DNA of 38,472 nucleotides from a virus. The DNA is taken from the IMG/VR virus record IMGVR_UViG_3300050821_011114, positions 1-38,472 of that record. One strand, given 5' to 3'. The first letter of the stretch is position 1. The number at the start of each line of letters is the position of its first letter. The notes beneath the pieces are model-generated. The model was not told the DNA's origin, searched no databases, and worked only from the letters and a program-made list of their open reading frames with translations. Positions 20,312 to 38,472 of the stretch are shown one piece after another. The position numbers and the translations under genes were made by a program.

Positions 20312-20639
20312 TTTGTTTCTCCCTCATTGCTTACATAATACTTATCGGGATATCCCATAAAAACTTTAGAGAATCTATAACTATTTTATAAATAAGTGAT
20401 TACATTGAGCTTTTAGGGCTAACGTGCGGTTAATTTATATGGTGGACGTAAGAAAAGCTACAGTATATATCTTACTGAGTGTGGGATTATTAGAGATTTA
20501 TTCAGTGGCTAAGTTTGGATATTAAGCTATAAATCGCCCATATGTCTAAGCATCTCAAACACTTACCGCACTCTACCACGTTTTTGAAAATGAAAGAGTA
20601 GTATAATTGAGTAAGACATGGATTTAGGGGGCTTTTTAC
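20312..20639. promoter_or_regulatory. Divergent regulatory region; start of the GTGCGG-rich half
   Basis: About 330 bases without a supported gene. Leftward: TATTAT (20331-20336 on the complement) with a perfect palindrome GGGATATCCC at 20347-20356 in its spacer, a likely operator. Rightward: TATAATTGAG at 20602-20607 followed by AGGGGG before ATG 20640. It contains the first two dense-field GTGCGG sites, facing each other (20424 on +, 20566 on -), each followed by T and an A/T-rich flank. The long, AT-rich, gene-free stretch between them could hold a control element or a replication-related site, but no iterons were seen. Confidence 0.5.
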
Positions 20640-21134
20640 ATGGAAATTAAGCAAAAGAAACCGCTAGCTTGTGCTACTTGTCATAAGACTGAGGAAGAAG
20701 CACTCTTCCGCCATCCCAAGGGACAACTTAGGCGCTACTGCGTTCCTTGCTATAACGCTTATATGCGCACCCTCCGTGCTCGCCTGCGCCGCTTCAACCC
20801 CAAGGGCTCAGTCAAGCTAAAGCGCCATAATGAAAAGGTTCTAAGGGATCTAAAGCCGGGGTTCTATGTAATCCAATGGGAAGCTCTTAGGAAGGCTACA
20901 GAAGGCTTTCTGGGCTTTGATGGCCGCACTCTATATCTTCATACCGGTAAGAAAGGTTTCCGCGTGGAATATGATATAAAGGCCGTGGCTGCGTTCCTGG
21001 CTAATAGAAGATTGTTGGCTGAGGCTATTAAGGTGCGGGTGCTGAAGGGGGATGAATTGGCTAGACCTAAAGACTTAATGGAGCACGAGCCCATCGTCCC
21101 TATAGTTCAGGTACAGAGGGGTTGGATACGTTAG
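20640..21134 (+). CDS. Basic zinc-finger protein, candidate DNA-binding regulator
   Basis: 164 residues; AGGGGG precedes the ATG. C11-x2-C14 and C34-x2-C37 ('CATCHKTEEEALFRH', 'YCVPCYNAYMRTLRARLRRF') form a four-Cys finger followed by an Arg-rich helix, a familiar HNH-like/recombination-endonuclease-VII-like or DNA-binding start. No HNH triad follows, so nuclease activity is not supported. The rest is basic alpha/beta ('GFYVIQWEALRKATEGFLGFDGRTLYLHTGKKGFRVEYD'). It is the only rightward gene in this accessory stretch and stands at the boundary of the GTGCGG field; whether it binds that motif is unproven. Its stop overlaps the stop of the convergent gene. Confidence 0.55.
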   Translation: MEIKQKKPLACATCHKTEEEALFRHPKGQLRRYCVPCYNAYMRTLRARLRRFNPKGSVKLKRHNEKVLRDLKPGFYVIQWEALRKATEGFLGFDGRTLYLHTGKKGFRVEYDIKAVAAFLANRRLLAEAIKVRVLKGDELARPKDLMEHEPIVPIVQVQRGWIR

Positions 21135-21496
21135 GCTTTAAGGGATTTAGATGCCATAGCCCTGGCTAGATAAGACAATCTTTGAGCATCCTCTAGCCTG
21201 CCTTCAACCATAGCTATGAAATAGGCAGTCAGTAGTTCATTTTGCTGAATTTGGAATTTCAGTAATGGATCCATAGCTACGTTACTAGAATCTAGCCAGA
21301 CTTCAGCTGTAAAAGGAATTTCTAGGTCGATGGAAATGCTAGACTCAGGATCCGCCCAAACTAATTTACTTCCACTAAGGATTTCATCTCGATTTACCAA
21401 GTAGACTTTAGAGGCGTCAAATCGTGCGGTATGGACATCGCACCAATCCGAATGAGCCTCATTAGTATGTTGAGCACCGCACGTACACTTATTCAC
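21131..21496 (-). CDS. Unknown protein with short Cys/His metal site
   Basis: A start at GTG (complement of 21494-21496) is preferred: AAAGGTG stands 5 bases before it, while the upstream ATG at 21586 would overlap the next gene by 53 bases. The 121-residue product begins with C4-x-C6 ... H10 ... H15 ... C19-x2-H22, a possible zinc site, then strands ('KVYLVNRDEILSGSKLVWADPESSISIDLEIPFTAEVWLD') and a C-terminal helix. Convergent with the zinc-finger gene, overlapping by the four bases TTAG. Confidence 0.5.
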   Translation of the reverse strand: MNKCTCGAQHTNEAHSDWCDVHTARFDASKVYLVNRDEILSGSKLVWADPESSISIDLEIPFTAEVWLDSSNVAMDPLLKFQIQQNELLTAYFIAMVEGRLEDAQRLSYLARAMASKSLKA

Positions 21497-21533
21497 TTTA
21501 GCACCTTTCGGGTATAATACCGCACGTTTATGC

Positions 21534-21755
21534 CTAGAGTTTTGCGGGCGGGGCGAATCCCCACTCGGTAAAACGTCCCTCAGCATATGCCAATATCAGT
21601 TTACTTAAATGATCTGGAGCCACTTCACCATTTATTAAGACATGACGCTCATTTGTATCAAATTCGCATTCTTCACGACTCGATACAGAGCCCTCTTCTG
21701 TAAGCAAGTCGCTCATTTTGTAGGCTTTAATGGTTGTCAAAACTTTAATTTCCAT
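21534..21755 (-). CDS. Small acidic protein of unknown function
   Basis: 73 residues with AAGGAG before the ATG. 'MEIKVLTTIKAYKMSDLLTEEGSVSSREECEFDTNERHVLINGEVAPDHLSKLILAYAEGRF' suggests a strand, an acidic loop and a helix. No motif recognised. The ribosome site lies inside the stop region of the preceding 40-aa membrane ORF. Confidence 0.58.
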   Translation of the reverse strand: MEIKVLTTIKAYKMSDLLTEEGSVSSREECEFDTNERHVLINGEVAPDHLSKLILAYAEGRFTEWGFAPPAKL

Positions 21756-21765
21756 GATTTTCTCC

Positions 21766-21888: not shown

Positions 21889-21954
21889 TCTAGATGCCCT
21901 CCAGAACGTGCGGTTATAAGGAAGTTATCGTAGTATAGGGGCTTTCGCTTATAC

Positions 21955-22476: not shown

Positions 22477-22513
22477 AATAACTAACTTCCAACTAAAAGA
22501 AATGGACTGCCAA

Positions 22514-23611: not shown

Positions 23612-23871
23612 TATGCTTTCCTCATAGCTTTGACTAAAAGCTTACCCTTGCCTACACCTTTATAGTGTGTTTCGTAGTCTAGTAAATACAATTCGGCAAC
23701 TACGTTTTTTAACACATGCAGGGCAAAATCCCCAGTATAATCGAGATCCCATTTGAGAGTCTTTAAAGCAGTGGAAACAAAGGGATTTATCTCAATGAGG
23801 GCGCCCTCTTCCTCGAGCAACTTTTTTACTATCTTTCTGGATACCCTAACTGTTGGGAATTCTTTTTCCAT
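23611..23871 (-). CDS. Unknown protein (86 aa)
   Basis: Start shares one base with the transporter stop. 'FPTVRVSRKIVKKLLEEEGALIEINPFVSTALKTLKWDLDYTGDFALHVLKNVVAELYLLD' is alpha/beta with a basic end. No motif recognised. Tight coupling suggests co-expression with the transporter. Confidence 0.55.
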   Translation of the reverse strand: MEKEFPTVRVSRKIVKKLLEEEGALIEINPFVSTALKTLKWDLDYTGDFALHVLKNVVAELYLLDYETHYKGVGKGKLLVKAMRKA

Positions 23872-25292
23872 TATGCTTTCCTCAGCTCACTCACTTTGAG
23901 TACGATCAGCCCTAGTATACTCAATGCCGTGGAAATGATCAAGCTCCATATGAGTAGCTGACCCAGTTGGCTGAAGTCTTCCCTGGTTACCACGAACCAA
24001 TTGTTCAAGGCCTTAGTGAGCAAATCGCCGCATACAAGAGCCAAGTTCATGAGGCTGGCTGTTAGGCTTATGTAGATAGCCCGTTGCTCAGGTGGGGCAT
24101 TCTTGGCGATTATAACGCCCAAGGGAATCATGGACAGCTCAGCTATAGCCGTACCCGCCGCAGTATCCACTAAGATCAGATGGCGTGCGGATATATGGAG
24201 TAGATCGTTGATGTGGTAGAAAACCATGATATCCGGCAACGAAAGAATCGTGCCAAGTACAGTCAACCAAGTGAGAACCTTAGGAATATTAGCGCTAGCC
24301 ATATAGTCCATGAAGAACCAAAGGATGGCTAGACTAGAGATCGCTCCAGTAAGAGACAGCAGCCCTAGGAATTCTTGGTCAAAGCCCATCTTATTAATGT
24401 AGAACCAAGACAACCCTGGTCCAGCTCCTGGAGTAGTGCGGAACAAGAAGATGGCAATCATAGATATAAAGAACTTAATCCGTATATCCTTAGGCATTGA
24501 TTTGGTGATCCAGTACATAAGGCTGGAAATAACTGTGAAGCTCAGAGCAAAGATCACAGGCTGAGCATAGCCAGCTAAGTACAGACCGCACAACACGCAA
24601 ACTACAGCATATATCCCGCCAGCTATGATGAGCGTGCGGTTAAAGACTGATTCATGGGTAGGCTTATTCAACCGCACGACCGCAGTAGATATGATGGATA
24701 TGACAGGGCATACAGCAGCCAAGCCAAATACCACAGCTGTAGAGTAGTGGGCGGCTAAGAAGCCAGTAATAGCTGCAGCACCCAGTGACCCAATTGCCAA
24801 AGCTATTTGAGTCAGAACCTGGATCTCACCTAGTTCCTTCTGGACATCCCCAGCTGGATCGACTAACTCAATTGCCATGGTGGAGGCAATGATGCCCGCT
24901 ACAACCGTACCAGTCGTAGCCAATAGCCCAGTGATCAATAACCCACCGAACTGACCTAGGTGATTGAATAGGATATGAGTAGAAGCGTGATCTACCATTC
25001 CCAAAGTACCCAGGAGGATCAGGAAGTTACCCAGATAGATATAGCTTTTTCTGTGATTCCCGAATAGCGAAATTCCATCAATCACAGACCCAAAGACTAT
25101 CTTTATAGACCAAGGCAATCCAGTCCAAATGCCTAGGCTGATTAACTTAGCCGCACTTAGGGATATTTGATCTTTCATGAAGTATGTAGCGGTTACAGCT
25201 GTAAGGCCGATAAAGCCCCTGGTGAAATACACCATGAGTAATGGGAGGTATCGTAGGCGGAAAGCCTTGATTGGGTTTAGTAGTTTATCCAT
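23871..25292 (-). CDS. BT1-type (folate/biopterin family) MFS membrane transporter
   Basis: 473 residues with about twelve hydrophobic segments and a short basic N-terminus; AGGAG 10 bases before the ATG. Residues 58-88 ('TGLPWSIKIVFGSVIDG' then 'LFGNHRKSYIYLGN') match the hallmark of the BT1 family, in which 'lPW.iKPlyG..sD..pifGyrRk.Yl' follows the second helix. The repeat half near 'GLSWFYINKMGFDQEFLGLLSLTGAISSLA' fits the second six-helix bundle. BT1 proteins move folates, pterins or related substrates in eukaryotes, cyanobacteria and some bacteria. AmpG-like MFS permeases share part of this motif and are the main alternative. The gene is complete, uses the same codons as its neighbours and holds several GTGCGG sites, so it is settled in this genome. 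It may change uptake of a host metabolite or act as a surface/immunity factor. Confidence 0.75.
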   Translation of the reverse strand: MDKLLNPIKAFRLRYLPLLMVYFTRGFIGLTAVTATYFMKDQISLSAAKLISLGIWTGLPWSIKIVFGSVIDGISLFGNHRKSYIYLGNFLILLGTLGMVDHASTHILFNHLGQFGGLLITGLLATTGTVVAGIIASTMAIELVDPAGDVQKELGEIQVLTQIALAIGSLGAAAITGFLAAHYSTAVVFGLAAVCPVISIISTAVVRLNKPTHESVFNRTLIIAGGIYAVVCVLCGLYLAGYAQPVIFALSFTVISSLMYWITKSMPKDIRIKFFISMIAIFLFRTTPGAGPGLSWFYINKMGFDQEFLGLLSLTGAISSLAILWFFMDYMASANIPKVLTWLTVLGTILSLPDIMVFYHINDLLHISARHLILVDTAAGTAIAELSMIPLGVIIAKNAPPEQRAIYISLTASLMNLALVCGDLLTKALNNWFVVTREDFSQLGQLLIWSLIISTALSILGLIVLKVSELRKA

Positions 25293-25355
25293 TGTTCAGA
25301 ATCTCCTATTGATCCATCTAATCTCTATCGGCTAAACCGCACGTTTCCTTTAGCC

Positions 25356-25418: not shown

Positions 25419-25982
25419 ATGAGTAAGATAGTAGACTGGAATAAAATAGCTAGTGTCAATTTCGACGACAACCGCCGTAAAAAGGTAGGCCAAATCACTA
25501 GTAAGGAGTTGTTCCAAAAGGCTCACGAACGCATGCAGGAAGAAGAGTCACGTGCGGATTACTTGCGTAAAGCCATGCCAATTCTCCAGAACGAACTCAT
25601 TAAAAGCTTATCCACCAAGACTCCTATATTGGTAAAATCGCCCATAAAGAACCCAACTGAGGCTTTAGGTGGCGTGATAAAAAGCCAAGACGATGAATTT
25701 CCAGACTTTTACAACAGTACTCCATCCAATCAAGGCGGAGGCTCTACTGCTAACGCTCGGTTCGAAGAAGTCATGCAAACTATCCCAGCCGGCATTACTT
25801 TGATGTTCAAGTCTTGGGATAAAACCCTCGATCAAATGGTATTTAGGGGCTCAGACGGTGAAGATTATGCTATCTATACCCGTCAAAAGATCCTTTTCAA
25901 AGGCCAAAGCATGGAAAACCCAGGACTATTTGGGCTACTGTTCAATACTAACCTAGCGGATATCCTCCAAAGCGAGGACTAA
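25419..25982 (+). CDS. Unknown protein upstream of tail tube genes
   Basis: 187 residues; AAAGGAAG before the ATG. The N-terminal 65 residues are charged and helical ('NFDDNRRKKVGQITSKELFQKAHERMQEEESRADYLRKAMPILQNEL'), then a Ser/Gly/Asn linker, then a folded part 'RFEEVMQTIPAGITLMFKSWDKTLDQMVFRGSDGEDYAIYTRQKILFKGQSMENPGLFGLLFNT'. Possibly a tail-assembly protein; no family recognised. It returns transcription to the rightward tail genes. Confidence 0.55.
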   Translation: MSKIVDWNKIASVNFDDNRRKKVGQITSKELFQKAHERMQEEESRADYLRKAMPILQNELIKSLSTKTPILVKSPIKNPTEALGGVIKSQDDEFPDFYNSTPSNQGGGSTANARFEEVMQTIPAGITLMFKSWDKTLDQMVFRGSDGEDYAIYTRQKILFKGQSMENPGLFGLLFNTNLADILQSED

Positions 25983-25989
25983 AATCTGC

Positions 25990-25995
25990 TATAAT
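25990..25995 (+). promoter_or_regulatory. Candidate -10 box upstream of the first tube gene
   Basis: CTGCTATAATTGGATTAAC, nearly the same as the promoter at 25379 (CTGCTATAATTTAATTAAG), lies 63 bases before ATG 26058. No good -35. The 9-base identity of the two boxes supports a shared promoter class. Confidence 0.4.
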
Positions 25996-26057
25996 TGGAT
26001 TAACAAAGCGTTTTAATGGCGCGTGAGATGGATAAATAAAGGTAAGGTACTAATATT

Positions 26058-26564
26058 ATGGCCCAAGTGATCACCGGTGCGAGAGGTAAGGTCGTCGTTA
26101 ACGGACAAGTCGTTGGATTTGTTGGCGGCGTTGACGTTGATATCGAAAACACATTGGCTGATGTCGATGTCTTAGGTCAAATCGAACGTGCGGACTTAGC
26201 CGAAGTTGGCCATAAATGCAACTTCACAATCAACTACTTCAAAGCTGTCCCACCAAGCACACCAACAACTAAAGGTGCTCCACACGGTGCAGCTGCTGGC
26301 GTAGTTTTCCCACTTTCAGCTGCTGGTCTTGGAATTGATTCCTCTTCCGCTAACACCGCTAAAGAAGGTGTCAAAGCTGGCGACATCAATTTGATGCGTT
26401 CACAAGTCTACTTCGACGTTGAAATCCAAGACGACCTCCAAGGTGGAAACAACGTCTTCGTTATGCAAAACTGCAAACTCGAAGGTGGAACTGGACGTCT
26501 AGAAGCTCGTGGAATTTGGCAAGGTACTTGGAAGTTCCAAGCTCAAAAAGGCTTCGGTTTATAA
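26058..26564 (+). CDS. Tail tube protein (major copy)
   Basis: 168 residues. 'MAQVITGARGKVVVNGQVVGFVGGVDVDIENTLADVDVLGQIERADLAEVGHKCNFTINYFK' matches the tail tube fold start (ring-forming beta barrel with a long hairpin), and 'NCKLEGGTGRLEARGIWQGTWKFQAQKGFGL' is the end strand. Position after the sheath and before the chaperone and tape-measure genes agrees. Codon bias matches the sheath gene (high expression), which suggests that this copy is the major tube subunit. It is followed by a double terminator. Confidence 0.75.
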   Translation: MAQVITGARGKVVVNGQVVGFVGGVDVDIENTLADVDVLGQIERADLAEVGHKCNFTINYFKAVPPSTPTTKGAPHGAAAGVVFPLSAAGLGIDSSSANTAKEGVKAGDINLMRSQVYFDVEIQDDLQGGNNVFVMQNCKLEGGTGRLEARGIWQGTWKFQAQKGFGL

Positions 26565-26623
26565 TAGAACCGCACGTTTCCGCACCCAGAGCGTAAAAGT
26601 GGGTACGTTTTTTAAAGTTTATT

Positions 26624-26670
26624 AAAAAAGCTATTATGTAAACCCTTAGGCGACCATAATAGCTTTTTTT
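26624..26670. terminator. Intrinsic terminator between the two tube genes
   Basis: A 15-base stem (26624-26638 with 26655-26669) with A run left and T run right, hence usable in both directions. A weaker hairpin (ACCCA/TGGGT) with a T run at 26608-26613 lies just upstream. Two GTGCGG sites 10 bases apart (26570, 26580) lie between the stop codon and these hairpins. Confidence 0.8.
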
Positions 26671-26724
26671 GTTAGCGCATAGACTAACGCCCCATAGATC
26701 CAAATTAGCATATAGGCATATAAA

Positions 26725-27201
26725 ATGGCAGCAGTAATTACCGGTGCAAGAGCAAGAATCAAGTTAAGTGGGGATGTTATAGCCTTCGCTTCTGGCATAT
26801 CAGTCACTCACGAACAACGCCTAGAAGAAATCCCCCAACTGGACAATCTAGAAATAGCCGAGTATGCGGAAAGTGGCCATAGGGTATCTGTGTCCGTAAG
26901 CTTCATTAAGCTAGCCTCCGATGCCAAGATAGCAGGACAAAGCCTATCCAACAATGCAGCTGACTTCAGTATGGACAGTTTGTCAGATCCTAAGTCCATC
27001 CTACTCCAACCGGAACTAATCATCGAAGTAGTAGATGCAGTACCCGTGCGGAACGGAAATGGGCAAATCACTGGTTACAATGAAGTGCCCATCTATACGG
27101 CCTTTGGATGTAAGTTTGAGGGCGGGACGGGCCAACTGTCAGCCCGTGGTATTTGGGAAGGAAATTGGAACTTTAAAGGCCGGCGGGGATTTGGTATTTA
27201 G
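26725..27201 (+). CDS. Second tail tube-like protein (paralog)
   Basis: 158 residues. 'MAAVITGARARIKLSGDVIAFASGISVTHEQRLEEIPQLDNLEIAEYAESGHRVSVSVSF' and 'GCKFEGGTGQLSARGIWEGNWNFKGRRGFGI' parallel the first tube protein closely at both ends. The middle differs. Codon use is less biased, there is no good ribosome site (TAGGCATATAAA precedes ATG), and a terminator separates it from the first copy, so it is probably a low-copy component such as a tube-initiator or terminal ring. Its stop overlaps the convergent gene's stop in TTAG. Confidence 0.7.
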   Translation: MAAVITGARARIKLSGDVIAFASGISVTHEQRLEEIPQLDNLEIAEYAESGHRVSVSVSFIKLASDAKIAGQSLSNNAADFSMDSLSDPKSILLQPELIIEVVDAVPVRNGNGQITGYNEVPIYTAFGCKFEGGTGQLSARGIWEGNWNFKGRRGFGI

Positions 27202-27485
27202 TGTTTCTTCTTCTTGGCTTTCTTACGTAAGACAGGCTCCACAACTTCCTCTACAATAGCCCGTTCATCTGCATCCTCTACTCCGAACTCCCAGAACTCC
27301 AGCTCTTGATAAAGCTGGAGGATCTCAGCTTCAGCGATTTCAATTTGTTCTTCTCGGATCATGAGCTCACCAGCTAGAATGACTATTTTGTCTTCTAGCA
27401 ATTTCAAGTCTTGCGCGTGAAAGTAAATGTTCAAAATGATCGTGATCACCAACATCCCTATCACTAATAGAGCAGAAACTTCCAT
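27198..27485 (-). CDS. Membrane-anchored coiled-coil protein (i-spanin-like layout)
   Basis: 95 residues: N-terminal TM ('VSALLVIGMLVITIILNIYF'), then a Glu-rich coiled coil ('LKLLEDKIVILAGELMIREEQIEIAEAEILQLYQELEF') and a basic end 'RKKAKKKKH'. This N-anchor plus periplasmic coiled-coil layout is that of Rz-type i-spanins, but no overlapping o-spanin is seen; the lipoproteins at 18324-18850 are the only outer-membrane candidates. Spanin role is inference. Confidence 0.5.
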   Translation of the reverse strand: MEVSALLVIGMLVITIILNIYFHAQDLKLLEDKIVILAGELMIREEQIEIAEAEILQLYQELEFWEFGVEDADERAIVEEVVEPVLRKKAKKKKH

Positions 27486-27496
27486 TTTTTAACCCC

Positions 27497-27745
27497 TTAA
27501 TCCAGTATTTCTGGATATTTAACGTATTCGAAATCGACTGAAACTCCGCCAGGCGTGATCTTGGCTCCATTAATCGCAGTCATTACGACTTCTGACCATT
27601 GAGCAGCCCTAGATTCGACATAGAAGGCAGCGGTGTTATTACCATTAATGTTGTAGGTAATTTCTAGGAGTTCAGCCCTATCTCCTTGAGAAGTCAGATA
27701 GTGCTTGCCTAGATCTGCCGGCGTTAAATCCTTAGTTAGACTCAT
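27497..27745 (-). CDS. Small DIGK-family protein (paralog 3 of 3)
   Basis: 82 residues. 'DLTPADLGKHYLTSQGDRAELLEITYNINGNNTAAFYVESRAAQWSEVV' aligns with the N-terminal parts of the proteins at 13467 and 23121 (D-[IL]-G-K/R, then G-x-[KR]-x-x-L). The C-terminal 'VDFEYVKYPEILD' echoes 'NPSKYPDVKE' at the end of the 23121 copy. Overlaps the preceding gene by 14 bases. Function unknown. Confidence 0.58.
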   Translation of the reverse strand: MSLTKDLTPADLGKHYLTSQGDRAELLEITYNINGNNTAAFYVESRAAQWSEVVMTAINGAKITPGGVSVDFEYVKYPEILD

Positions 27746-28301
27746 TTTCTAATTCCTCCATTTCTTCTTCCCATTTTTTAGCCAGACGTATCAATCTTTG
27801 TTGAGCCAAAAGATCAGATACTTCCAGGCCAAACTTGTCATATAGCATAAAACCCTCTCTGATAAGAGTCTTATCTTTTTCAGTGAAAGACTTATCCTTC
27901 AGGAACTTAGCCAAGTATTCATCCTTGAGCACTTCGAAGTCTTGTTCCTGCGCTAGGGCTTCGTCTCGTTCTGCGTTCCTTTGGTTGGCGTAGGCTAAGT
28001 GCTCAGGCTTCAGCATCTTCTCCATCCCAGACACATAACCGCACGCTTCACAGTAGTTGGAAGCTTCTAGGGTTTCGTGGTAGGTCTTGGGATCCATCTG
28101 CATGAGCTCCATCTCGTCAGGGTGCACTAACTTGATCTTCTTCCAAGCGTGCGGTCCTTTGCATAGGCGCTCATGATCTACGGGGTGCAAAGGCTCGCGG
28201 GCATACGTGCGGACCTTTTGCAGGTAAGTCACTACGGCCGCAACTATGACTACTTCCAGGCATACTAGGGACATGGTGATCGTAGCTATTAAATTAAACA
28301 T
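27732..28301 (-). CDS. Membrane-anchored Cys/His protein
   Basis: The start at the ATG complementary to 28299-28301 is chosen because GGAG lies 6 bases before it and because a good promoter (28338-28366) would start transcription downstream of the other ATG at 28334. The 189-residue product has an N-terminal TM ('FNLIATITMSLVCLEVVIVAAVVTYL'), 'CKGPHAWKK', and 'NYCEACGYVSGM', like the H-x-W ... YCxxCG site of the 18952 protein, then a long charged helical tail ending 'KKWEEEMEELENESN'. Probably a membrane-bound zinc protein facing the cytoplasm; function unknown. Confidence 0.6.
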   Translation of the reverse strand: MFNLIATITMSLVCLEVVIVAAVVTYLQKVRTYAREPLHPVDHERLCKGPHAWKKIKLVHPDEMELMQMDPKTYHETLEASNYCEACGYVSGMEKMLKPEHLAYANQRNAERDEALAQEQDFEVLKDEYLAKFLKDKSFTEKDKTLIREGFMLYDKFGLEVSDLLAQQRLIRLAKKWEEEMEELENESN

Positions 28302-28337
28302 GTAGTACTCCACGTGATGGCTATTGGTCATCAATCG

Positions 28338-28366
28338 TACATATCACCCTCATCGGCATAAGTCAA
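28338..28366 (-). promoter_or_regulatory. Leftward sigma70-like promoter for the 28301-27198 island
   Basis: On the minus strand TTGACT (28361-28366), 17-base spacer, TATGTA (28338-28343). The predicted start is near 28331, just inside the upstream ATG, which supports the shorter gene start. It is divergent from the promoter at 28382. Confidence 0.55.
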
Positions 28367-28381
28367 CCAAAACTTGAGGGC

Positions 28382-28409
28382 TTGACTTAAGGCAGTAAAA
28401 TGATATAAT
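28382..28409 (+). promoter_or_regulatory. Rightward sigma70-like promoter for tape-measure unit
   Basis: TTGACT (28382-28387), 16-base spacer, TATAAT (28404-28409). The best promoter match in the window. It is followed by GATTTAGAT and the AAGG site for ATG 28450. It should drive the chaperone-position, tape-measure and baseplate genes. Confidence 0.65.
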
Positions 28410-28449
28410 TAATCCAGACTAGATTTAGATTTAAATGAAGGTATACAAC

Positions 28450-28875
28450 ATGAGTCGCATTAGCAACTTACCCAAAAACTTGCCCTCCAAAGAAATTCCC
28501 TTTAAAATCAAAGTAAAAGGTTCCGTATCCAAAAAGGTATACGAAGGCGATTTTACTGTTTCCGTGCCTACAGTACGCGATATGTCCCGCATTGGCGTTG
28601 AACTTTCCCGCCTAAGTGATGGTATCCCCTTTGAAATGTTGGATAAAACTACCGCCGGTATCAACAATGCCGTAGCTTACCTCAAAGTTACCCTCAAAGA
28701 CGCTCCAGCTTGGTTCGTAAATAGCCCCGATGACGCTGACGAAGACGGTATGGACTACGGGTTGGACACTGTAGATATGAATGTCCCAGTCGAGATCTTC
28801 GCTGAAGCCCAAAAAGCGACTAGCAAATGGTATAAAAACCTAAGGGTTACGACTGAAGATGAGCCAAAGTCCTAA
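28450..28875 (+). CDS. Tail assembly chaperone-position protein (first ORF)
   Basis: The start at ATG 28450 is preferred (GAAGG 8 bases before); ATG 28435 has no ribosome site. The product (141 aa) begins 'MSRISNLPKNLPSKEIPFKIKVKGS' and has 'VSVPTVRDMSRIGVELSRLSDGIPFEMLDKTTAGINNAVAYLKVTLKDAPAWF', the composition of gpG-like chaperones ('v.vPt..d.i.i...ls..'). Position directly before a second ORF and the tape measure is that of tail assembly chaperones, which bind the tape measure and load tube subunits. It overlaps the next ORF by 17 bases in another frame. Confidence 0.6.
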   Translation: MSRISNLPKNLPSKEIPFKIKVKGSVSKKVYEGDFTVSVPTVRDMSRIGVELSRLSDGIPFEMLDKTTAGINNAVAYLKVTLKDAPAWFVNSPDDADEDGMDYGLDTVDMNVPVEIFAEAQKATSKWYKNLRVTTEDEPKS

Positions 28876-29254: not shown

Positions 29255-31308
29255 TGGCCAAGCATACCTTAAATATTGAAGGCTCCGCCGACTTTAGCTC
29301 CGTAATTAAGGGGGTTAAAGATCTACAATCTACGTTGTCGGGCGCCTTTGGTAAGAATGGGTTCAAGGTCTTAGACGAAGACTCTATCGATTTCCTCAAA
29401 GTCCAGACCCAATCCGCCTTAAGCCAAATGGTCAAGCAGATCCAGACTCTCCGCAAAGAAGCTGGTGAACTAGACAAGCTCATGAAAAATTCCGTTGGGG
29501 ATGAACGCCAACAAGCGTCTCTCCAAAAGGATCGTTTAGCTTATACCAGCCGAATCCTACAAGCTGAAACTGCACTCAATAAACTCCGCACGTCTGAAAA
29601 CATAATTACCACGGGTCGTCCTGATGCGGGCCCGATGAACAATCCGAATCCTATTAAGGGTGGGCGTTCAGCACCAATGGCTGTGGCCACTGAAGCAGTA
29701 TCTGATGGACTGTTTAAAATGGCAGCAGGATTCCTAACTGTAGGAACTGCTATCGGATTATTAGAGTCTGCATTCGGTAGAGCTTCAGAAGCCTTTAATA
29801 CCTATAGCCAATCCGTACCTGATCTGCTCAACTTAAGCGCTCGTGGAATCACCGCTATTAAAGGTGGTCCTGGAATGGGTGCGGCTAATGAACTCGGGTT
29901 CGGTCAACAAGATGTATTCCGTACTCAAGGTGAAGCCGGTAGTGCTTTCGGTCGTGGTCGTAATGCCCAAGGCGAACAAAACCGGGTGATCAATCTTTTG
30001 ACAGCCGCACGCGGACTCGGCGTAGAACCAGGACAACTTACTAACGCAGGCAATCAACTGCGTCAAGTAGGTGGCACCGAAATGGCCAACAAGCAGATGG
30101 GCATCATTATTGAGAAAGCCTTCACTGCTGGTCTAGATAAAACCCAAGTACCGCACTACTTAGAAGCTGCTACTAGCTTACTCGCCAACCTCAATCAAAC
30201 TGGATTGGCGAACTCATCTAAGTTATTAGATGTTATGACGGACTTGACAGCTAAGGGCAATATGTCCCCTGAGCAAGCTTCTCGTAACATACAAAGTATT
30301 AACTCAGCTGTAGCTCATTCACAAGGTGAGCAAAACGCATTCTTCCAAGCAGCTGCTATGCGTGCGGGATTAGGCGGTGGAACTCTCTTAGGTACTCAAT
30401 TCGCCGTTCGTCAAGGTCTCCAAGGCGTTGATATTAACGCACTACGCAAGCAGGTTGGCGGTAGCAAAGAAGGCATGCAAGGCCTACAAGCTATCGAACA
30501 GATGGGTTTGAATAAGTCTTCCTTTACCCAAGATTTTGCCAAAAGCATTCTAGGTGAATACCATCGTCGTATCGCAACTGGAACACCACAAGGTGCGGCT
30601 GCGGGATTGGGCTTTATTGGTCAGAACTTTGGAGTCCAGACAGCTGGTGAAGCAACTCGAGTCTTGGCTATCTTGGATAAAATATCCACTGGAACGGCCA
30701 CTGCCAAAGATACTAAGAAACTCAGCGATCTGCAAAAAGATCCAGAAACAAAATGGCGTGATGATGTATTGGGTCGCTTGGATAAAGTAGCCTTGTCCAC
30801 TGCCCAAACAGCCGCACGTAGCCAGGCAGCTAAATTCGAATTCGGGGAAGCAGCAGCTGGACTGTTCAATGCTTTGACAAATGCCTTAACTAAACTCGAC
30901 CAAACTCTTACTACGTTCTTCACACAAGGACCTCTAAAGGGTGCGGAAAATCTAGCAGCAGCAATACCTGGCGCTAAAGAAGCTGCAGCGGGAATATCCT
31001 CTTTAGCTAACCCTCTGATCGACGCTGTAATGCCAGCAGTAGGACCAGCAATTGAATCCGTAAGCAATCTCCTCAGTGGTAATCCCGCAACAGCAGGAGC
31101 GACTAAGTCTGTATCGGACTTCCTCAATCCAGTTACGGCTAAGCCAGCTGCAGCAGCTGCAACTATGGGAGCTGCTAGTCAACAAAAATCCATGGATTCC
31201 AACCATATGGAACACATGGTTAACGAACAACGTAAAACTAACCAAATCCTGGAACGTAGCTTAGGCCGTCCGGGAGCTCCGAAAGTGTCCAGAGACACAC
31301 TCAAATAA
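29254..31308 (+). CDS. Tail tape measure protein
   Basis: 684 residues, start overlapping the previous stop. The N-terminal ~140 residues are coiled-coil ('SSVIKGVKDLQSTLSGAF', 'QIQTLRKEAGELDKLMKNS', 'LQAETALNKLRTSE'). Hydrophobic helices at ~150-180 ('LFKMAAGFLTVGTAIGLLESAFG') follow. A long Gly/Gln/Ala-rich helical middle ends with an Ala/Pro-rich stretch (~545-650) of membrane-active type, and a basic tail. It sets tail length and is ejected during infection. By the usual ~0.15 nm per residue it would fit a tail near 100 nm. No lytic transglycosylase or peptidase motif is visible. Confidence 0.8.
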   Translation: MAKHTLNIEGSADFSSVIKGVKDLQSTLSGAFGKNGFKVLDEDSIDFLKVQTQSALSQMVKQIQTLRKEAGELDKLMKNSVGDERQQASLQKDRLAYTSRILQAETALNKLRTSENIITTGRPDAGPMNNPNPIKGGRSAPMAVATEAVSDGLFKMAAGFLTVGTAIGLLESAFGRASEAFNTYSQSVPDLLNLSARGITAIKGGPGMGAANELGFGQQDVFRTQGEAGSAFGRGRNAQGEQNRVINLLTAARGLGVEPGQLTNAGNQLRQVGGTEMANKQMGIIIEKAFTAGLDKTQVPHYLEAATSLLANLNQTGLANSSKLLDVMTDLTAKGNMSPEQASRNIQSINSAVAHSQGEQNAFFQAAAMRAGLGGGTLLGTQFAVRQGLQGVDINALRKQVGGSKEGMQGLQAIEQMGLNKSSFTQDFAKSILGEYHRRIATGTPQGAAAGLGFIGQNFGVQTAGEATRVLAILDKISTGTATAKDTKKLSDLQKDPETKWRDDVLGRLDKVALSTAQTAARSQAAKFEFGEAAAGLFNALTNALTKLDQTLTTFFTQGPLKGAENLAAAIPGAKEAAAGISSLANPLIDAVMPAVGPAIESVSNLLSGNPATAGATKSVSDFLNPVTAKPAAAAATMGAASQQKSMDSNHMEHMVNEQRKTNQILERSLGRPGAPKVSRDTLK

Positions 31309-31332
31309 TAAGATTTTAGATTTGGATTTAAG

Positions 31333-33351
31333 ATGGCCATTACAGATATCGTACAAGAAGCTAAGAACGTCGTTAGCGGAAAAGGGTTCACCGATCAGGT
31401 AGTTCCCGATTCCGATCGCCGTGTTGATCGCGTAGACCAATGTAAAGTCGTATGGTATCAATGGGCCAATCCACTAATGAACACAGGAGCAACGGCTTTT
31501 GGTATTAACCCATTAGGCGCTTTACCCACACCCCCGTTCGTATTGTCAGCCTCTACTTCATATGATATTTCCAACCATATTGAATCCTTTACTTATTCCA
31601 AGGATATGGATTCAGCAGCTGGATCATTCTCCATAGTCCTTCACAACTCATTCGACTTCGCTAGATTCATGCATCCGGGCGAATGGATCACTATCTATTT
31701 GGCTCAAGACGGTAGCTTAGGCTTACCTTCAGAAATCCCAGCTACAGCCGCACTCTCTGCTAATCAATCTTTGGATGCGTACGAAAATAGCTTGATTCCT
31801 CCGACACCTAGTCTAAGCAATGTGGGTGGAGCTTTAGCTAGTTTAGCTACTTCTATTCTCCCACAACCTTTGCCACAACTCCCGTTGCCTTCCCCTGACT
31901 CTGATATCCTGGGTAGCTCTAAGGCTAAACTCCGCACGCTAGGGGTTATTACTCGTGTGGGCATACGCTCCACCATGACTGCAGACGGCACCCAAGAAAC
32001 CACATATACTGTTACCGGCAGAGACTTCGGAACTGTATACGAAGAAACTGAAATATGGTTCAATGCCAACAATGCGGATAACGAAACATACCAATCTGTC
32101 GTGAATGCTACAACTACCCAATTCCAACGTAACGTAAGTGAACTGCTGGACAAGTGGCATGATCTGTTCTTGAACCCAAAGAAAGATCTCAGCAACATAG
32201 CTGACCTATCCGCCTTCTATCCAGAACAGTGGCTCATGCCGAGTACTTTGACGGATGATTTAGGATTGCAGTTTCCACTAGGGGCTTCTGGCTTCTTTGG
32301 TGAAATCCAAGATCTCAAGGAATTCAACGCTACAGTGTTCGAGAACCCAGATGCTAATCCATTGTCAGGCCTTGAGGGTAAGTGTTGGGATCGTCTAAAG
32401 TCTTTAGCTCAACCAGAGTTTCACGAACTTTTCACAGAGCTCAGTGATACCGGTCACCCACGATTGATTTTCCGCCCAATCCCATGGGCTCTGGATAAAT
32501 CAAATTATCCTACGATAGGTGCGGCTATCCTTAACTACAAGGATTTGACCTCCGGTACTCCAGTGCAACCACCCGCACCCATTGGTACCAACCTTTCATC
32601 TTTGGGTTCCATAGCTTCAGCCGCACTTAGCGTCTTAAAAAGTTCTATATCGGACTTCAGAGTTATACACTCCATTCCTTTGACTGCTATCGAAGTAGAA
32701 AACTACGATATCGGACCGGATTATCACAACCGTTACAACTTCTTCCTCATTAGTTCTTCTAAAGCTGGTCTGGATCAAACGAATGCCTTCGCCACTATCG
32801 CTGGATCAGCTAATGCGAAGTTCAACTTCCCGTTGCGTAACGAAAACAACATCAAACGCAACGGATTTAAGCCCATGATCGTCAACGTAGCGACGTTTTT
32901 GGCCAATTCAGGGGGCTTATTCAATAACGGTAAGTTCTTCTCTAACTCCCCATCTGAAGAATTCATCCTCCAAGCGAATGCTATGATGCAGGATTATCAT
33001 GGTCATAATCAGGACTTTTATAGCGGTACGATCACTATAAATGGCCGAAATGACATCAAATTGGGTAAAGTTATCGTCACAGATGAGACTTTTGACGGTA
33101 TTTCTGATATGGTTTTCTATATAGAGGGCTATGAAGATAACTTTACGGTTAATTCAGACGGCGTTACAAGCTGGACACAAAACCTCCATGTAACACGTGG
33201 GATGACTAAGGCCTTCTTGAACGGCGGAAGTTCTGTATATCGTCCATCAGTCCAAACCAACACGTTCCATTCTTTCGATAAGAACGGCGCTGGAACTGGA
33301 AATGCGATTCTAGATGCAGCTAAAAAATTCATTAAATCTCCATTAGGCTAA
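31333..33351 (+). CDS. Baseplate hub protein (gp27/gpD-like)
   Basis: 672 residues. 'STSYDISNHIESFTYSKDMDSAAGSFSIVLHNSFDFARFMHPGEWITIYLAQDG' followed, after a Pro/Leu-rich loop, by 'GVITRVGIRSTMTADGTQETTYTVTGRDFGTVYEETEIWFN' is the typical first tail-tube-like domain of hub proteins (D/gp27/gp44 class). The C-terminal part contains another barrel ('DYHGHNQDFYSGTITINGRNDIKLGKVIVTDE ... MVFYIEGYEDNFTVNSDGVTSWTQNLHVTRGM'), the usual hub end. It forms the platform for the spike encoded next. Confidence 0.75.
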   Translation: MAITDIVQEAKNVVSGKGFTDQVVPDSDRRVDRVDQCKVVWYQWANPLMNTGATAFGINPLGALPTPPFVLSASTSYDISNHIESFTYSKDMDSAAGSFSIVLHNSFDFARFMHPGEWITIYLAQDGSLGLPSEIPATAALSANQSLDAYENSLIPPTPSLSNVGGALASLATSILPQPLPQLPLPSPDSDILGSSKAKLRTLGVITRVGIRSTMTADGTQETTYTVTGRDFGTVYEETEIWFNANNADNETYQSVVNATTTQFQRNVSELLDKWHDLFLNPKKDLSNIADLSAFYPEQWLMPSTLTDDLGLQFPLGASGFFGEIQDLKEFNATVFENPDANPLSGLEGKCWDRLKSLAQPEFHELFTELSDTGHPRLIFRPIPWALDKSNYPTIGAAILNYKDLTSGTPVQPPAPIGTNLSSLGSIASAALSVLKSSISDFRVIHSIPLTAIEVENYDIGPDYHNRYNFFLISSSKAGLDQTNAFATIAGSANAKFNFPLRNENNIKRNGFKPMIVNVATFLANSGGLFNNGKFFSNSPSEEFILQANAMMQDYHGHNQDFYSGTITINGRNDIKLGKVIVTDETFDGISDMVFYIEGYEDNFTVNSDGVTSWTQNLHVTRGMTKAFLNGGSSVYRPSVQTNTFHSFDKNGAGTGNAILDAAKKFIKSPLG

Positions 33352-33360
33352 GGATCTTAT

Positions 33361-34458
33361 ATGCAAAGGCAAGACGGATCAGTAAGATCTTCAAACAACC
33401 CAGTGCGGCAAAACCGGTATCTAATTAAGGACTACGGTCTTTATAAAGGTGTCGTGAGGTCTGTTATATATACGGACGATGATCGCAACGATTCAGGTGC
33501 TGGCCAAGATCCTACCGAAACTGTCTATGTAGTGATGGTTATCGGTGGCGATAGAGACGGGCAAATATTCAATAATGCTCGCCTTATGCGCAACCTGGGC
33601 GGCTTCGATAACTATTCGGAAATTACCCTAAAATCTACTGAGGGGATTTCCCACCAAGATATCACTTCCATCATAGCAGCTGGTGACCCATCCCTTAACA
33701 AGATTGAAAAGCTCGGTGGGGATAGCGTCTATATCCAGTTCCTAAACGGTGACCCGCACATGCCAGTTATTGTAGGCATGTCCAACCACCAAGAAGCGCC
33801 TGCAGATTCAACATCTACAGATGGTCCAGTATTTGTGGAACGTTATAACGGTATAACTACGGATATTGATAAGAACGGCGTCTTTACATGGTCTAAAGAC
33901 AACGGTGCATACGTCCCATTCCTCCCGAACATTGACAATCCTTTGGCACCTTTCATCAATCAGTTCGCTCCTTTGACGGGGCAAACGGATGCTGTAGTTG
34001 TAACCCTTAATAATACTTATGAACTATCGGTTGCCTTCCTCCCTGGCTTAACCATTACTGCGGATGGACTTAAGGATAGCGTTTCCATAGCGACTGCAGT
34101 TGGAACGGCTTTTGAGATTAGCGGTCCTACTGATTCCCTGAAACTATCCACTACTGGTGGAGCTTCATTAGCATTAGATACCACTTCCGGATTAAGCGTC
34201 AAAACAGCTACCGGAGATGCTTTAGCAATAGGTAACGGTGCGGTATCTTTAAAGAACACTGCTGGCGCGAATTTATCTTTCGATGCTACTGGATTTATTA
34301 AGCTCGGTAACAGCAGTGGAGATGTCTTAAAAGATGTACTCGAGGCTCTTATACAAGCTCTAACCACCGAAGCTCCTGCAGGATTCGGAGCCCCATTATT
34401 GAACGTAGCAACATATGTACAGTTATTAACAAAAATACAATTGATTACCGGGGGCTAA
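33361..34458 (+). CDS. Baseplate spike/puncturing protein (gpV/gp5-like)
   Basis: 365 residues; AAGGATC before the ATG. Residues ~20-145 form an OB-fold: 'YGLYKGVVRSVIYTDDDR' and, at 123-140, 'VYIQFLNGDPHMPVIVGM'. From ~165, short beta repeats ('TLNNTYELSVAFLPGLTITADG', 'LKLSTTGGASLALDTTSGLSVKTATGDALAIGNGAVSLKNTAGANLSFDATGFIKLGNSSGDVL') build a trimeric needle, followed by a helix 'DVLEALIQALTTE'. No lysozyme domain is present, unlike T4 gp5. It pierces the outer membrane during contraction. Confidence 0.8.
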   Translation: MQRQDGSVRSSNNPVRQNRYLIKDYGLYKGVVRSVIYTDDDRNDSGAGQDPTETVYVVMVIGGDRDGQIFNNARLMRNLGGFDNYSEITLKSTEGISHQDITSIIAAGDPSLNKIEKLGGDSVYIQFLNGDPHMPVIVGMSNHQEAPADSTSTDGPVFVERYNGITTDIDKNGVFTWSKDNGAYVPFLPNIDNPLAPFINQFAPLTGQTDAVVVTLNNTYELSVAFLPGLTITADGLKDSVSIATAVGTAFEISGPTDSLKLSTTGGASLALDTTSGLSVKTATGDALAIGNGAVSLKNTAGANLSFDATGFIKLGNSSGDVLKDVLEALIQALTTEAPAGFGAPLLNVATYVQLLTKIQLITGG

Positions 34459-34459
34459 G

Positions 34460-35101
34460 ATGGCTCTCAACGCTGATCAACTAGCTCAGGCACTATTGAA
34501 CACTATGAGCCCTAAAGTCGACGGAAAGGGCATGCCGGTTTCTTCTACCGCACAAGTGAAAGCTTATGCTGCTGGGATAGTTTCTTGTTTGCAAAGTGCC
34601 ATAGTTTCCAACGCTCCGGGAACTATCGTAGGGGTCACCGCACCCGGAGCTCCTTTGACAGCTGGGGCAGGTACGGGTGGGATTATGGTCATTACCCCTT
34701 CTGCTCTTCAAGCTCAAACAGCCACAGCTTTCGTAGGTGCCAAAACTATAGCGGCTGAAAATACCGCCATCATAACCTACATCGGTACTGGTTTGATCGT
34801 CTTCCCTACTGGAGGTATCGTAGGAACTTGCACGAATACTCCAACAAGTCCAGGACCTTTGACCGCAGGAACTGGAACTGGTGGGATGATAGTGGGTCTC
34901 ACGGGTGCGGCTGCCTTAGGTGCAGTTGCTCCAGCTCTAGGAACTCCCGGTCCTGCAGCAGTTGCTTTCTATAATGCTCTAATAACATACATTCTTTCCA
35001 GCGCCCAAGCTACTTATGGCACGGGAACGGTCCAAGGCGTCTGCCCACCCGGAGGAGGTCCTTTAACTGCTGGATCTGCCTCGGGCGGGACCATTTCTTA
35101 G
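34460..35101 (+). CDS. Repeat protein next to spike (three PLTAG-GTGG units)
   Basis: 213 residues, Ala/Gly/Thr-rich, starting one base after the spike stop. A unit with pattern V-x-G ... P-L-T-A-G-x-G-T-G-G occurs at ~56-76, ~119-144 and ~190-213; helical stretches ('TAFVGAKTIAAENTAIITYIG', 'AAVAFYNALITYILSSAQATYG') separate them. The units may form a trimeric or threefold beta element. The gene stands between spike and LysM/gp25 genes, so a small baseplate/spike-associated role is inferred. Confidence 0.6.
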   Translation: MALNADQLAQALLNTMSPKVDGKGMPVSSTAQVKAYAAGIVSCLQSAIVSNAPGTIVGVTAPGAPLTAGAGTGGIMVITPSALQAQTATAFVGAKTIAAENTAIITYIGTGLIVFPTGGIVGTCTNTPTSPGPLTAGTGTGGMIVGLTGAAALGAVAPALGTPGPAAVAFYNALITYILSSAQATYGTGTVQGVCPPGGGPLTAGSASGGTIS

Positions 35102-35104
35102 TGA

Positions 35105-35110
35105 TATAAT
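35105..35110 (+). promoter_or_regulatory. Candidate -10 box before the 35146 gene
   Basis: GTGATATAATTACC immediately follows the preceding stop, 36 bases before ATG 35146; it resembles the 28404 box (TGATATAATTAAT) over eight bases and is likewise followed by TAGATTTAGATG. No clear -35. Confidence 0.4.
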
Positions 35111-35145
35111 TACCAATAGGTATAGATTTAGATGGGAAGATGTGA

Positions 35146-37668
35146 ATGTCCACTATCAATATAGCGGGTGCAGCTAATTTAGCCAACAATATTGCTAGTG
35201 CAACCAGAGGGTTAGCCACGGCATTCGGCTTAATTAATCCAGAACCACACTTTCCAACCACTCCAGAACAAGCGATAACTGCTGATTTCCAAAGACAAAA
35301 CTGGTACGTAACCCCCAGTCAGGGTCTTTATGCCCTTATGGTCGAACCAGTCGGATCAGGATCTTCTCTGGTCAGCGAATTTCCTCAGTTCGTTCAAAAC
35401 ATCTACTCAACTTTCAATTCTCTAGAATCAAGACTCAGCGGTGCGGTTGATACCAGCTTCGCTGAATTTGTTTTGCCTACCACTCCCCAAGAAATCAACC
35501 AAACTGAAGACTTCGCCGTTTCTTTGAAACCAACCCAAGGCGGAACTGTAGTCTACCATTCCGGTAACAAATATAAGACTTTGGTTATTTCCGGTACTAC
35601 AGGGGTTGCTCCTTACCGTGGAGCTTCTGGCGTAGACAAATATACTGGCCTCTCCATTGGCAATCCCGATGATCTCCAATACCGTAGCGGTTATGAAGTG
35701 TTTCAACATTTCAGACAATGGATCAAAGCGTATCACGAAACCAAAGCGGCATCTGGAACCACGAATATCCGCATGCTTTGGAAAAACTACAAGGATTGGG
35801 AATTCTTGTATGTAGAGCCAATTAAGTTCACAATGCGCCGAGACGCAACACGCCCACTGTTGTACAACTACAACATACAATTCCGTGTTACTGGCGTTAA
35901 AACAATCGATGCTCCATTGTTCAGTTTAGTAGTCAATAAACTCAACGATATATCCACTGCGTTATCTAACGGATATACGCTTATTAAGACCAATAAAGCT
36001 GCTTCTGAGCAGATCACGGGTAACTTAAACGACCTAACCAACGCTGTTAACCGCTTAAAGTTGTCTGTAAAAGCCTCCACTCAAGGTATTCTGCACTTTG
36101 ACGACATTGATAGCACCATTACTAAGAAGCTTTCTAACAAAGAAGCTCTATCCGTGCTCAATGCTATCGGTAATGCCATGGTTCAAGGCGGAAACAACAC
36201 GCGTCAGGCAGAAGTAACTAATACCGCACCTAAGGCTGCTAATCCTACTAAAACAGGATTGAGCTTGATAGATACTGCCAAAAACCCCGGTAATATTAGT
36301 CCCACTGCTATTAAAAATCAAATAAACGGCCTATTAGACTCCGAACCGGCTCTAATGAAGTCGATTTCTTTGGCTACATTGCCAACTAGTGTCCAAAAAG
36401 ACGTCAAAACACTTCAACAAGCAGCTGCATCTATTTCTCGTGTAGACGTTATGGATGTGAAAACTCAGGTTAAATCTACCTACGATAAGCTCGCTAACGG
36501 CGTAGGATTAGCAGATTCTACGTACAATTCTATCTTTGGAATCACTCAAACAGGCGTTTCTGGCAACCAAACACAGCTAAGTGATGACCAATTTGAGATG
36601 ATGTACGCTTTGAGCCAAACAATCAACAGCGTAGATGGTATTCTCAGCAGCGATACCATGTTTGATACGAACTCACAATTGTATTCTACTGCTAGTGCCA
36701 ATAACGGATCACAAACAATTGGTCAAGGCGTATTTAGTGTTCTGAATCCAGCTGGTAGCGTTAAAGAAGGTCCTTTACCTGCTAACTTAACTCTAGAGGA
36801 CATCGCTCTTAAAGAACTCGGAGATTCTTCCCGTTGGACAGAAATCGCTGACCTGAACGGTCTTAAAGCCCCATATGTTATCAGTCTTCAAGATGCGCTG
36901 AAAATAGCTTATACTGTACAGTCTGAAAAATACAATAACTCTGCCGATATCCGCGACTTGCGTATCGGATACTTCTTCCTTATTCCAACCGCACCTACGC
37001 CTTTGAATGCTTTCGCGGGCAAAGGTAATAACATCGCTGAATACCTAGGTGGCGATAAAAATACTGCAGCTAACTGGCGCTTCATTTTCCCAGACGTTGG
37101 AACCATCGTATTTTCAGTAGGATCTCAAAACCATCTCCAGTATGAACACGGAGTTTGGGGGATCGTAGATCCGTCGACCTTCACTACAGACGGTGTTTTG
37201 AAACCTGGAGACAACATCAAGATTCCAGCTGCCCCATCACCACCGATTGCCACCCCATTGCAAGGCCCTAGGGACAATCTCTATACCAATAGCTTGTCTA
37301 ACTCTGAGAAGTCCTTAGCGGTCGATTTAAAGCTCACCAGCGACTTGGACCTGGACTTGTTGGCTAGTGGAGATTTAGCAGTAGCTACCGGATATGTGAA
37401 CGCTGCACAAGCTATCGTTTTGAAACTACTTTACAGTAAAGGTAGCCTCAAAAAGTTCCCAACTCTAGGTTCTAGCCTTCAGCCCGGCAAGAAAGTCCCT
37501 GATATTGCTTCCTTAAGAAGTGACATTACAGCTTCCTTGTTGCAAGATGCTAGAATTAGAGATGTAACCAAAATCAATCTAATCCAAGTCGGCGGAACTC
37601 TGACACTGTCCTTCACCGTAATCTTTAAAGATGTTCAACAACCTATACCAATAACCATACCGGTATAA
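35146..37668 (+). CDS. Baseplate protein: tail-hub/LysM/gp25 fusion
   Basis: 840 residues; GGGAAG before the ATG. The N-terminal ~240 residues ('FVLPTTPQEINQTEDFAVSLKPTQGGTVVYHSG' and 'WKNYKDWEFLYVEPIKFTMRRDATRPLLYNYNIQFRV') match phage baseplate proteins that precede LysM domains. The middle (250-520) is helical. 'TLEDIALKELGDSSRWTEIADLNGLKAPYVI' (~549-580) is a LysM-like, gp53-type unit. The last ~115 residues (726-840: 'LDLDLLASGDLAVATGYVNAAQAIVLKLLYSKGSLKKFPTLGSSL ... SFTVIFKD') are a W/gp25-like sheath-initiator domain. In T4 these functions are separate proteins (gp53, gp25). It should couple peptidoglycan-type LysM packing to sheath assembly within the baseplate wedge. Confidence 0.75.
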   Translation: MSTINIAGAANLANNIASATRGLATAFGLINPEPHFPTTPEQAITADFQRQNWYVTPSQGLYALMVEPVGSGSSLVSEFPQFVQNIYSTFNSLESRLSGAVDTSFAEFVLPTTPQEINQTEDFAVSLKPTQGGTVVYHSGNKYKTLVISGTTGVAPYRGASGVDKYTGLSIGNPDDLQYRSGYEVFQHFRQWIKAYHETKAASGTTNIRMLWKNYKDWEFLYVEPIKFTMRRDATRPLLYNYNIQFRVTGVKTIDAPLFSLVVNKLNDISTALSNGYTLIKTNKAASEQITGNLNDLTNAVNRLKLSVKASTQGILHFDDIDSTITKKLSNKEALSVLNAIGNAMVQGGNNTRQAEVTNTAPKAANPTKTGLSLIDTAKNPGNISPTAIKNQINGLLDSEPALMKSISLATLPTSVQKDVKTLQQAAASISRVDVMDVKTQVKSTYDKLANGVGLADSTYNSIFGITQTGVSGNQTQLSDDQFEMMYALSQTINSVDGILSSDTMFDTNSQLYSTASANNGSQTIGQGVFSVLNPAGSVKEGPLPANLTLEDIALKELGDSSRWTEIADLNGLKAPYVISLQDALKIAYTVQSEKYNNSADIRDLRIGYFFLIPTAPTPLNAFAGKGNNIAEYLGGDKNTAANWRFIFPDVGTIVFSVGSQNHLQYEHGVWGIVDPSTFTTDGVLKPGDNIKIPAAPSPPIATPLQGPRDNLYTNSLSNSEKSLAVDLKLTSDLDLDLLASGDLAVATGYVNAAQAIVLKLLYSKGSLKKFPTLGSSLQPGKKVPDIASLRSDITASLLQDARIRDVTKINLIQVGGTLTLSFTVIFKDVQQPIPITIPV

Positions 37669-37680
37669 TACGAGATAAAA

Positions 37681-38472
37681 ATGTCAAATTTAACTTTAAA
37701 AAGTGAACAACAAATTATCGGCGGGATGGCCAGGACTATTCTTGCCAATACCGGTCTCAACGACTTGAACCCCGGTTCAGTTCTTTTGACCCTTTTGCAA
37801 GCAGCCGCACAAGAAGACTTTGCTCAATACTACCAAATGCTTCAAATCGTGCGGAACTATAACTTAGATTCGACTACCGGTTCCGACTTGGACAACCGTG
37901 CTTTCGAATACGGTTTAACTCGTAAACAAGCCACCACTACTACTGGCCGTATTACTATATTTCAAGCTGCTTCTTTCGTAGAAGTGGAAAGCGGATTCTA
38001 TACTGGTTTCCGTTCAGCCATCGCAGGCGATACCACCATATTCATTAACAACGGTGCGGGTTTCCCAACTAGTGGGGCTCAACAAACGTTGATCATCGGT
38101 AGTGGAACTCCTAACGAAGAAGAAGTCACATATACTCCTAGCGGTTCCAACCCACAGAACTTCACCAACTACTACGCCATTACTTTGGACGTAGCGTTGT
38201 CTCATGATCATTCCCAAACTGAGACCGTAATCCTTAAACAGGGTTCTGACATCCTCATTCCAGCTGGTACAATCGTTCAAGTTCCTGCAGCAGGAGTTTC
38301 CCCACAAATCACATTCTCAACTACAGTTGATGCGACTATCCTCGCAGGTACTTCTGAAGTAGACGACGTCAACGTAGAGTGTACTCAAGTCGGATCCGTA
38401 GGTAACATTAGCGTTAACGCAATCAGCGGAACATCAGCCTTTGTGAACCCTCCGTTCTCAGGCGCTAGAGCA
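37681..38472 (+). CDS. Baseplate wedge J-like protein (3'-truncated by window edge)
   Basis: 264 residues are visible and the frame is open to the right edge. GAGATAAAA precedes ATG 37681. 'MSNLTLKSEQQIIGGMARTILANTGLNDLNPGSVLLTLLQAAAQEDFAQYYQMLQIVRNYNLDSTTGSDLDNRAFEYGLTRKQAT' is the standard start of gpJ/gp6-like wedge proteins ('l.....G..ld..a...g..R..a'), followed by beta-rich domains ('SFVEVESGFYTGF', 'ILIPAGTIVQVP'). It follows the gp25-like gene as in P2- and Mu-type clusters. Confidence 0.8.
   Translation, partial: MSNLTLKSEQQIIGGMARTILANTGLNDLNPGSVLLTLLQAAAQEDFAQYYQMLQIVRNYNLDSTTGSDLDNRAFEYGLTRKQATTTTGRITIFQAASFVEVESGFYTGFRSAIAGDTTIFINNGAGFPTSGAQQTLIIGSGTPNEEEVTYTPSGSNPQNFTNYYAITLDVALSHDHSQTETVILKQGSDILIPAGTIVQVPAAGVSPQITFSTTVDATILAGTSEVDDVNVECTQVGSVGNISVNAISGTSAFVNPPFSGARA

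Follow-up and report, generated by a model that had tools for sequence, protein, structure and literature searches.

A dense field of the hexamer GTGCGG in one half of an uncultured myovirus contig, probably a lineage-specific DNA signal in an imported tract

Results

The window, by which we mean the whole stretch of DNA that was analyzed, is IMG/VR virus record IMGVR_UViG_3300050821_011114 in its full length of 38,472 bases. Its source is an uncultured myovirus, and it is probably part of a longer phage genome. Among its genes are those for a tail sheath, baseplate proteins, baseplate J, and an HNH endonuclease, and a sigma-70-like factor with regions 1.2, 2, 3, and 4 is encoded at 10758-11993 among structural genes. 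Reference phages are far off, as the sheath is 29% identical to that of Myxococcus phage Mx1. The right half opens with a divergent intergenic stretch (20312-20639) and carries a leftward gene for a BT1-family (folate/biopterin-type) transporter (23871-25292) and a block of structural genes (25419-38472), mostly rightward tail and baseplate genes as judged from synteny and baseplate families. The transporter is odd cargo for a phage. No relative of it was found in the reference phages, and its best relatives, 39% identical, are scattered across several phyla, which led us to reject it as a means of assigning the host. A search of the window for known RNA elements found none, and the annotated domains and families of its genes gave no pointer to an enzyme of the modification or restriction type.

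The preliminary description of this DNA had reported a dense field of GTGCGG in the right half, with 51 copies, 25 of them on the minus strand. An exact count on both strands gave 57 copies in the window. The coordinates of the field were right; its content was 53 copies between 20,424 and 38,059, with 26 on the plus and 27 on the minus strand. The left half (1-20,400), which served as an internal control, was at chance level as had been claimed, with four copies at the four places named (509, 3047, 9618, and 12893). Dinucleotide shuffles of the whole window yielded 9.6 ± 2.9 copies, and none reached 57. We also shuffled synonymous codons within each gene 300 times, which preserves both the proteins and the codon use. 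The right-half genes contained 47 copies as compared to 5.6 ± 2.2 in the shuffles (maximum 12), and the left-half genes 4 as compared to 3.0. In the right-half genes, no other hexamer reached the z of GTGCGG (17.5), and the runner-up was its own overlap, CGTGCG, at 10.2. When the analysis was repeated on 47 segments of 18 kb, the other 46 taken from eight reference phages, five relatives, and the left half, the top-hexamer z by codon shuffle was 16.6 for the right half and at most 7.3 elsewhere. The field is real and unusual, and it withstood both the hexamer ranking and the codon shuffling that had been put forward as checks. The enrichment operates at the DNA level, with neither protein constraint, already discounted in the preliminary description, nor codon use as its cause. 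Apart from GTGCGG, weaker words were in excess in the right half (CAGCTG, 40 versus 17; ATATCC, 23 versus 8.7), and AAATTT was avoided (0 versus 14.5).

Counts, codon shuffles, and change-point analysis place the field at 20424-38472, on both strands. The best change point is at 20,420 (range 19,680 to 20,420), and by gene order and sequence this best position of the left edge lies within the divergent intergenic stretch. From there, sites continue at a uniform density (Kolmogorov-Smirnov, KS, p 0.66) of 2.9 per kb until some 400 bases before the record ends, a point that need not be the right limit of the field. They occur in all codon frames, 23 in sense and 24 in antisense orientation, and 6 of the 53 are intergenic. 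The gaps between them fit an exponential distribution (KS p 0.80), by which a phased or paired array was rejected, and orientation switches randomly; both spacing and orientation are random, and the sites are non-directional. A degenerate motif was rejected, since eighteen one-mismatch words showed no excess and the exact hexamer alone was enriched. We then counted possible positions, defined as places where the present protein could be encoded with GTGCGG on either strand. The word was used at 47 of 95 such positions in the right half and at 4 of 87 in the left half, a measure that somewhat favors existing sites because it is based on proteins in their present form. With one word at about half of its protein-compatible positions, mostly with no change in the protein, this phage tract represents an extreme case of DNA-level selection in a virus.

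The flanks of the core were analyzed at bases whose variation leaves the proteins unchanged, namely intergenic and fourfold-degenerate ones. Upstream, we found A at −3 in 6 of 8 free bases, A or G at −2 in 18 of 19, and C at −1 in 12 of 17. Downstream, T was found at +6 in 10 of 11 and at +7 in 18 of 25, with nothing clear further out. The C before and the T after the core that had been noticed earlier are genuine preferences and belong to a motif of about 11 bp, approximately ARCGTGCGGTT, with a hard GTGCGG core and softer flanks. Within genes, the flanks yield to the protein, while the core does not. The full motif AACGTGCGGTT stands at four of the six intergenic sites: the first site of the field (20421-20431, plus strand), identified by its sequence and the free-base motif, and those at 21905-21915 (plus), 25335-25345 (minus), and 26568-26578 (minus). 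A second core on the same strand as the last of these (26580-26585, minus) lies 10 bases from it.

We found one syntenic relative, IMGVR_UViG_3300047160_021165 (G001; 108,914 bases), with 66 to 78%, about 70%, nucleotide identity to the right-half genes of the window. It encodes DNA polymerase A, ribonucleotide reductase, an SbcD-like protein, terminase, and portal, as well as a GroEL-like chaperonin and an Nramp-family transporter. The BT1-family transporter is also present, at 81% amino acid identity. In the G001 homologue of the structural right half, GTGCGG was found zero times, at 0 of 96 possible positions. At each of 29 aligned field sites, G001 lacked the word through substitutions of many kinds, typically with two to three mismatches, a pattern by which we rejected a single-base conversion process. 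Residue conservation between the two phages was 66% at the sites and 68% elsewhere; since residues at the sites are conserved like those elsewhere, many sites arose through silent change. A conserved role of the right-half region is unlikely because the sister phage lacks GTGCGG there, and we rejected a conserved regional function of the field on the same ground.

GTGCGG was nevertheless the strongest regional hexamer of G001, with 11 copies as compared to 0.9 expected at 16 to 26 kb of the reversed contig. In the comparison with related phages that had been proposed earlier, the word was missing from the homologous genes and present in another tract. Clustering was strong, with 18 of 20 copies inside 26.7 kb (p 5e-5), and the frequency of the word was raised in genes that are insertions by comparison with the window (10 of 79 versus 9 of 443 positions, p 1e-4). 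The free flanks leaned toward the same extended motif (18 matches versus 11.8 expected, z 2.3). By eye, inserted genes of G001 resemble thymidylate synthase and dihydrofolate reductase. The sole GTGCGG shared between the two phages by alignment is in the left half of the window, at 9618-9623 (reversed-contig position 8893).

Gene order runs on across the edge at 20.4 kb, as in G001. A step in base composition at the edge, considered as proof of mosaicism, was gone once genes were paired one by one with those of G001 (p 0.39). As composition is unchanged at the edge, the case for import comes solely from the distribution of the motif. Base 241 of the window aligns with base 3 of the reversed G001 contig. 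The left end of the window is thus about 240 bases from the G001 contig end, and the two assemblies share this breakpoint in the genome.

Further relatives, with open reading frames called by a simple longest-ORF rule, differed in their words. The sibling contig G006 had no excess of GTGCGG (3 sites versus 2.7 expected), and the distant relatives G002 and G005 had no comparable enriched word. The distant relative G004 (121 kb) carried TGTGGCT genome-wide, with 67 copies in genes as compared to 9.5 by codon shuffle. These were divided nearly equally between the strands, spaced exponentially, and followed by T at +6 in 49 of 59 free positions. TGTGGCT was used at 25% of possible positions in G004 and at 3 to 5% in the other tested relatives. 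Strong word avoidance was also seen in G004 (CCAGG, 1 versus 147; TTTAAA, 0 versus 106; CAGCAG, 0 versus 52), in G002 (AACGTT, 0 versus 74), and in G005 (GGCCA, 5 versus 77), a picture suggestive of restriction pressure exerted by different hosts. Avoidance of neighboring words may add to the TGTGGCT excess in G004; the one-mismatch table suggests that TGTGGCT itself is favored. TGTGGCT is a second, different strict word within the same phage family. Scans of viral contigs found no further contig with a dense field; one fragment carries the field.

The motif was also used to search for the host. Overlapping samples of 230, 369, and 398 Pseudomonadota genomes showed no field-like excess, and none of the tested genomes of this phylum was rich in the extended word. 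In about 1,000 scans of bacterial genomes, no host was found; the host may lie in a phylum other than Pseudomonadota. Among the papers listed in a literature search, no title or abstract named GTGCGG as a phage signal.

Discussion

The field is probably a lineage-specific DNA signal in an imported tract and not a conserved function of the tail genes. As to what reads it, we tentatively favor a sequence-scanning machine of the host, most likely of the Chi type. A RecBCD- or AddAB-type nuclease would halt degradation at the motif, and repair would begin there. Recombination would have brought in the tract from a lineage of phages that is adapted to a host using GTGCGG as its signal, while lineages lacking it would have given rise to the left half and to most of the sister phage. 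Several results are consistent with this combination of Chi-like signal and import: the codon-shuffle excess, unique among the segments; the strictness and non-directionality of a word filling 47 of 95 positions; the extended motif at free bases; the sharp edge within an intergenic stretch; and the absence of the word from homologous G001 genes together with its presence, mainly among inserted genes, in a different tract there, where the flanks lean toward the same motif. That G004 has its own strict word is expected of a host-matched signal, and G001 encodes an SbcD-like recombination protein.

There is a precedent in that phages select Chi sites, which are concentrated in parts of their genomes at 0.2 per kb (Bobay, Touchon and Rocha 2013, PMC3784561). 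Like Chi, GTGCGG is a short, strict, non-palindromic word under selection (the exact hexamer alone is in excess), is found in genes, is concentrated in part of the genome, and appears host-dependent. Chi is the known case nearest in behavior, and uptake sequences are nearest in letters. In contrast to Chi in phages, the density here is about 2.9 per kb, far higher, and the soft flanks on both sides resemble a binding site on duplex DNA more than a Chi of five to eight bases. The sampled Pseudomonadota genomes without a field-like excess may also speak against a Chi-like signal, and the constant composition across the edge, together with the possibility of a chimeric join at 20.4 kb, speaks against import. 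The absence of strand bias had been taken as an argument against a Chi-like site; this was too strong, since DNA ends are attackable from both sides. Should GTGCGG prove to be a Chi or an uptake signal of the host, fields of this kind could be used to read such signals, and the hosts, of uncultured phages directly from sequence.

The main rival to the Chi-like reading is that the sites are targets of a DNA-binding protein of the phage itself with a need for numerous scattered asymmetric sites. This could be a repressor of the stoperator type or a factor for nucleoid, partition, or packaging functions. We regard this as possible, though somewhat less so, and with a reader encoded by the phage, the field would be a genome mark of a new kind. 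Soft flanks around a hard core, over about 11 bp, are what a duplex-DNA binding site looks like. Stoperators have a fixed orientation relative to transcription and lie mostly near gene borders. The field sites, unlike these, show no transcription bias (23 sense, 24 antisense), are mostly intragenic (6 of 53 intergenic), and are missing from the homologous genes of the sister phage. The likeness is to the many dispersed asymmetric sites bound by cluster A mycobacteriophage repressors (PMC9283540). We found neither a candidate protein nor, in the window, a repressor; the product of the gene at 20640, suggested earlier as a binder, has the position of its gene as sole support. From the same preliminary proposal, a non-directional mark acting at the DNA level stands, while a conserved partition, packaging, or silencing role in this region is unlikely given 0 of 96 positions in G001.

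It is rather unlikely that the field is a dialect of DNA uptake sequences, in which the tract would come from a naturally competent host and the sites would have been gained by biased uptake and recombination. The letters are close, as AACGTGCGGT here and the Haemophilus 10-mer AAAGTGCGGT are one base apart, and GTGCGGT is common to the field and the Pasteurellaceae uptake signal sequence AAGTGCGGT (PMC1626085). Both are strict, dispersed, and non-directional, lie within and between genes, and point to an origin by point mutation; uptake sequences reach at least about one copy per kb, and the field has 26 plus and 27 minus sites at 2.9 per kb. Pasteurellaceae prophages accumulate uptake sequences, although these are scarce in large, likely lytic Pasteurellaceae phages (PMC6776037). 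In contrast to the uptake signal sequence, with A at −1, the field has C there and lacks the AT-rich 3' segments: free positions +8 to +25 showed no AT preference, and neither AAGTGCGGT nor ACAAGCGGT occurs in the field (zero copies of either). Nor was any tested Pseudomonadota genome rich in the extended word.

A modification or defense mark, for example a methylation target favored since the modified site protects the phage, is improbable. Many methylation targets are short, strict, non-palindromic, and non-directional, and the strong word avoidance in relatives is typical of restriction pressure; such pressure, however, usually deletes sites instead of adding them, and the window holds no pointer to such an enzyme. 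We give equally little credit to a chimeric record, in which two phages, one with a genome-wide field, would have been joined by the assembly near 20.4 kb. The edge is sharp, but gene order is unbroken over it, as in G001, and the field in the right part would stay real even so. Codon bias, protein constraint, or chance, which the genic location of most sites might have suggested, is refuted to near certainty by the codon shuffle (z 17.5), by sites on both strands, in all frames, and between genes, and by 46 control segments without an equal.

With respect to the family, it is possible that its myoviruses carry lineage-specific dispersed words (ARCGTGCGGTT here, TGTGGCT in G004), in fields gained or lost whole and moved with tracts, and that such a word would serve as a DNA-level identity mark governing how the molecule is treated by host or phage machinery. 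The different word in G004 offers a comparative handle testable across phages. HIP1 of cyanobacteria is another single word, very dense in genes and with a function that is unsettled; it is palindromic and chromosomal, whereas GTGCGG is non-palindromic and lies in a phage tract.
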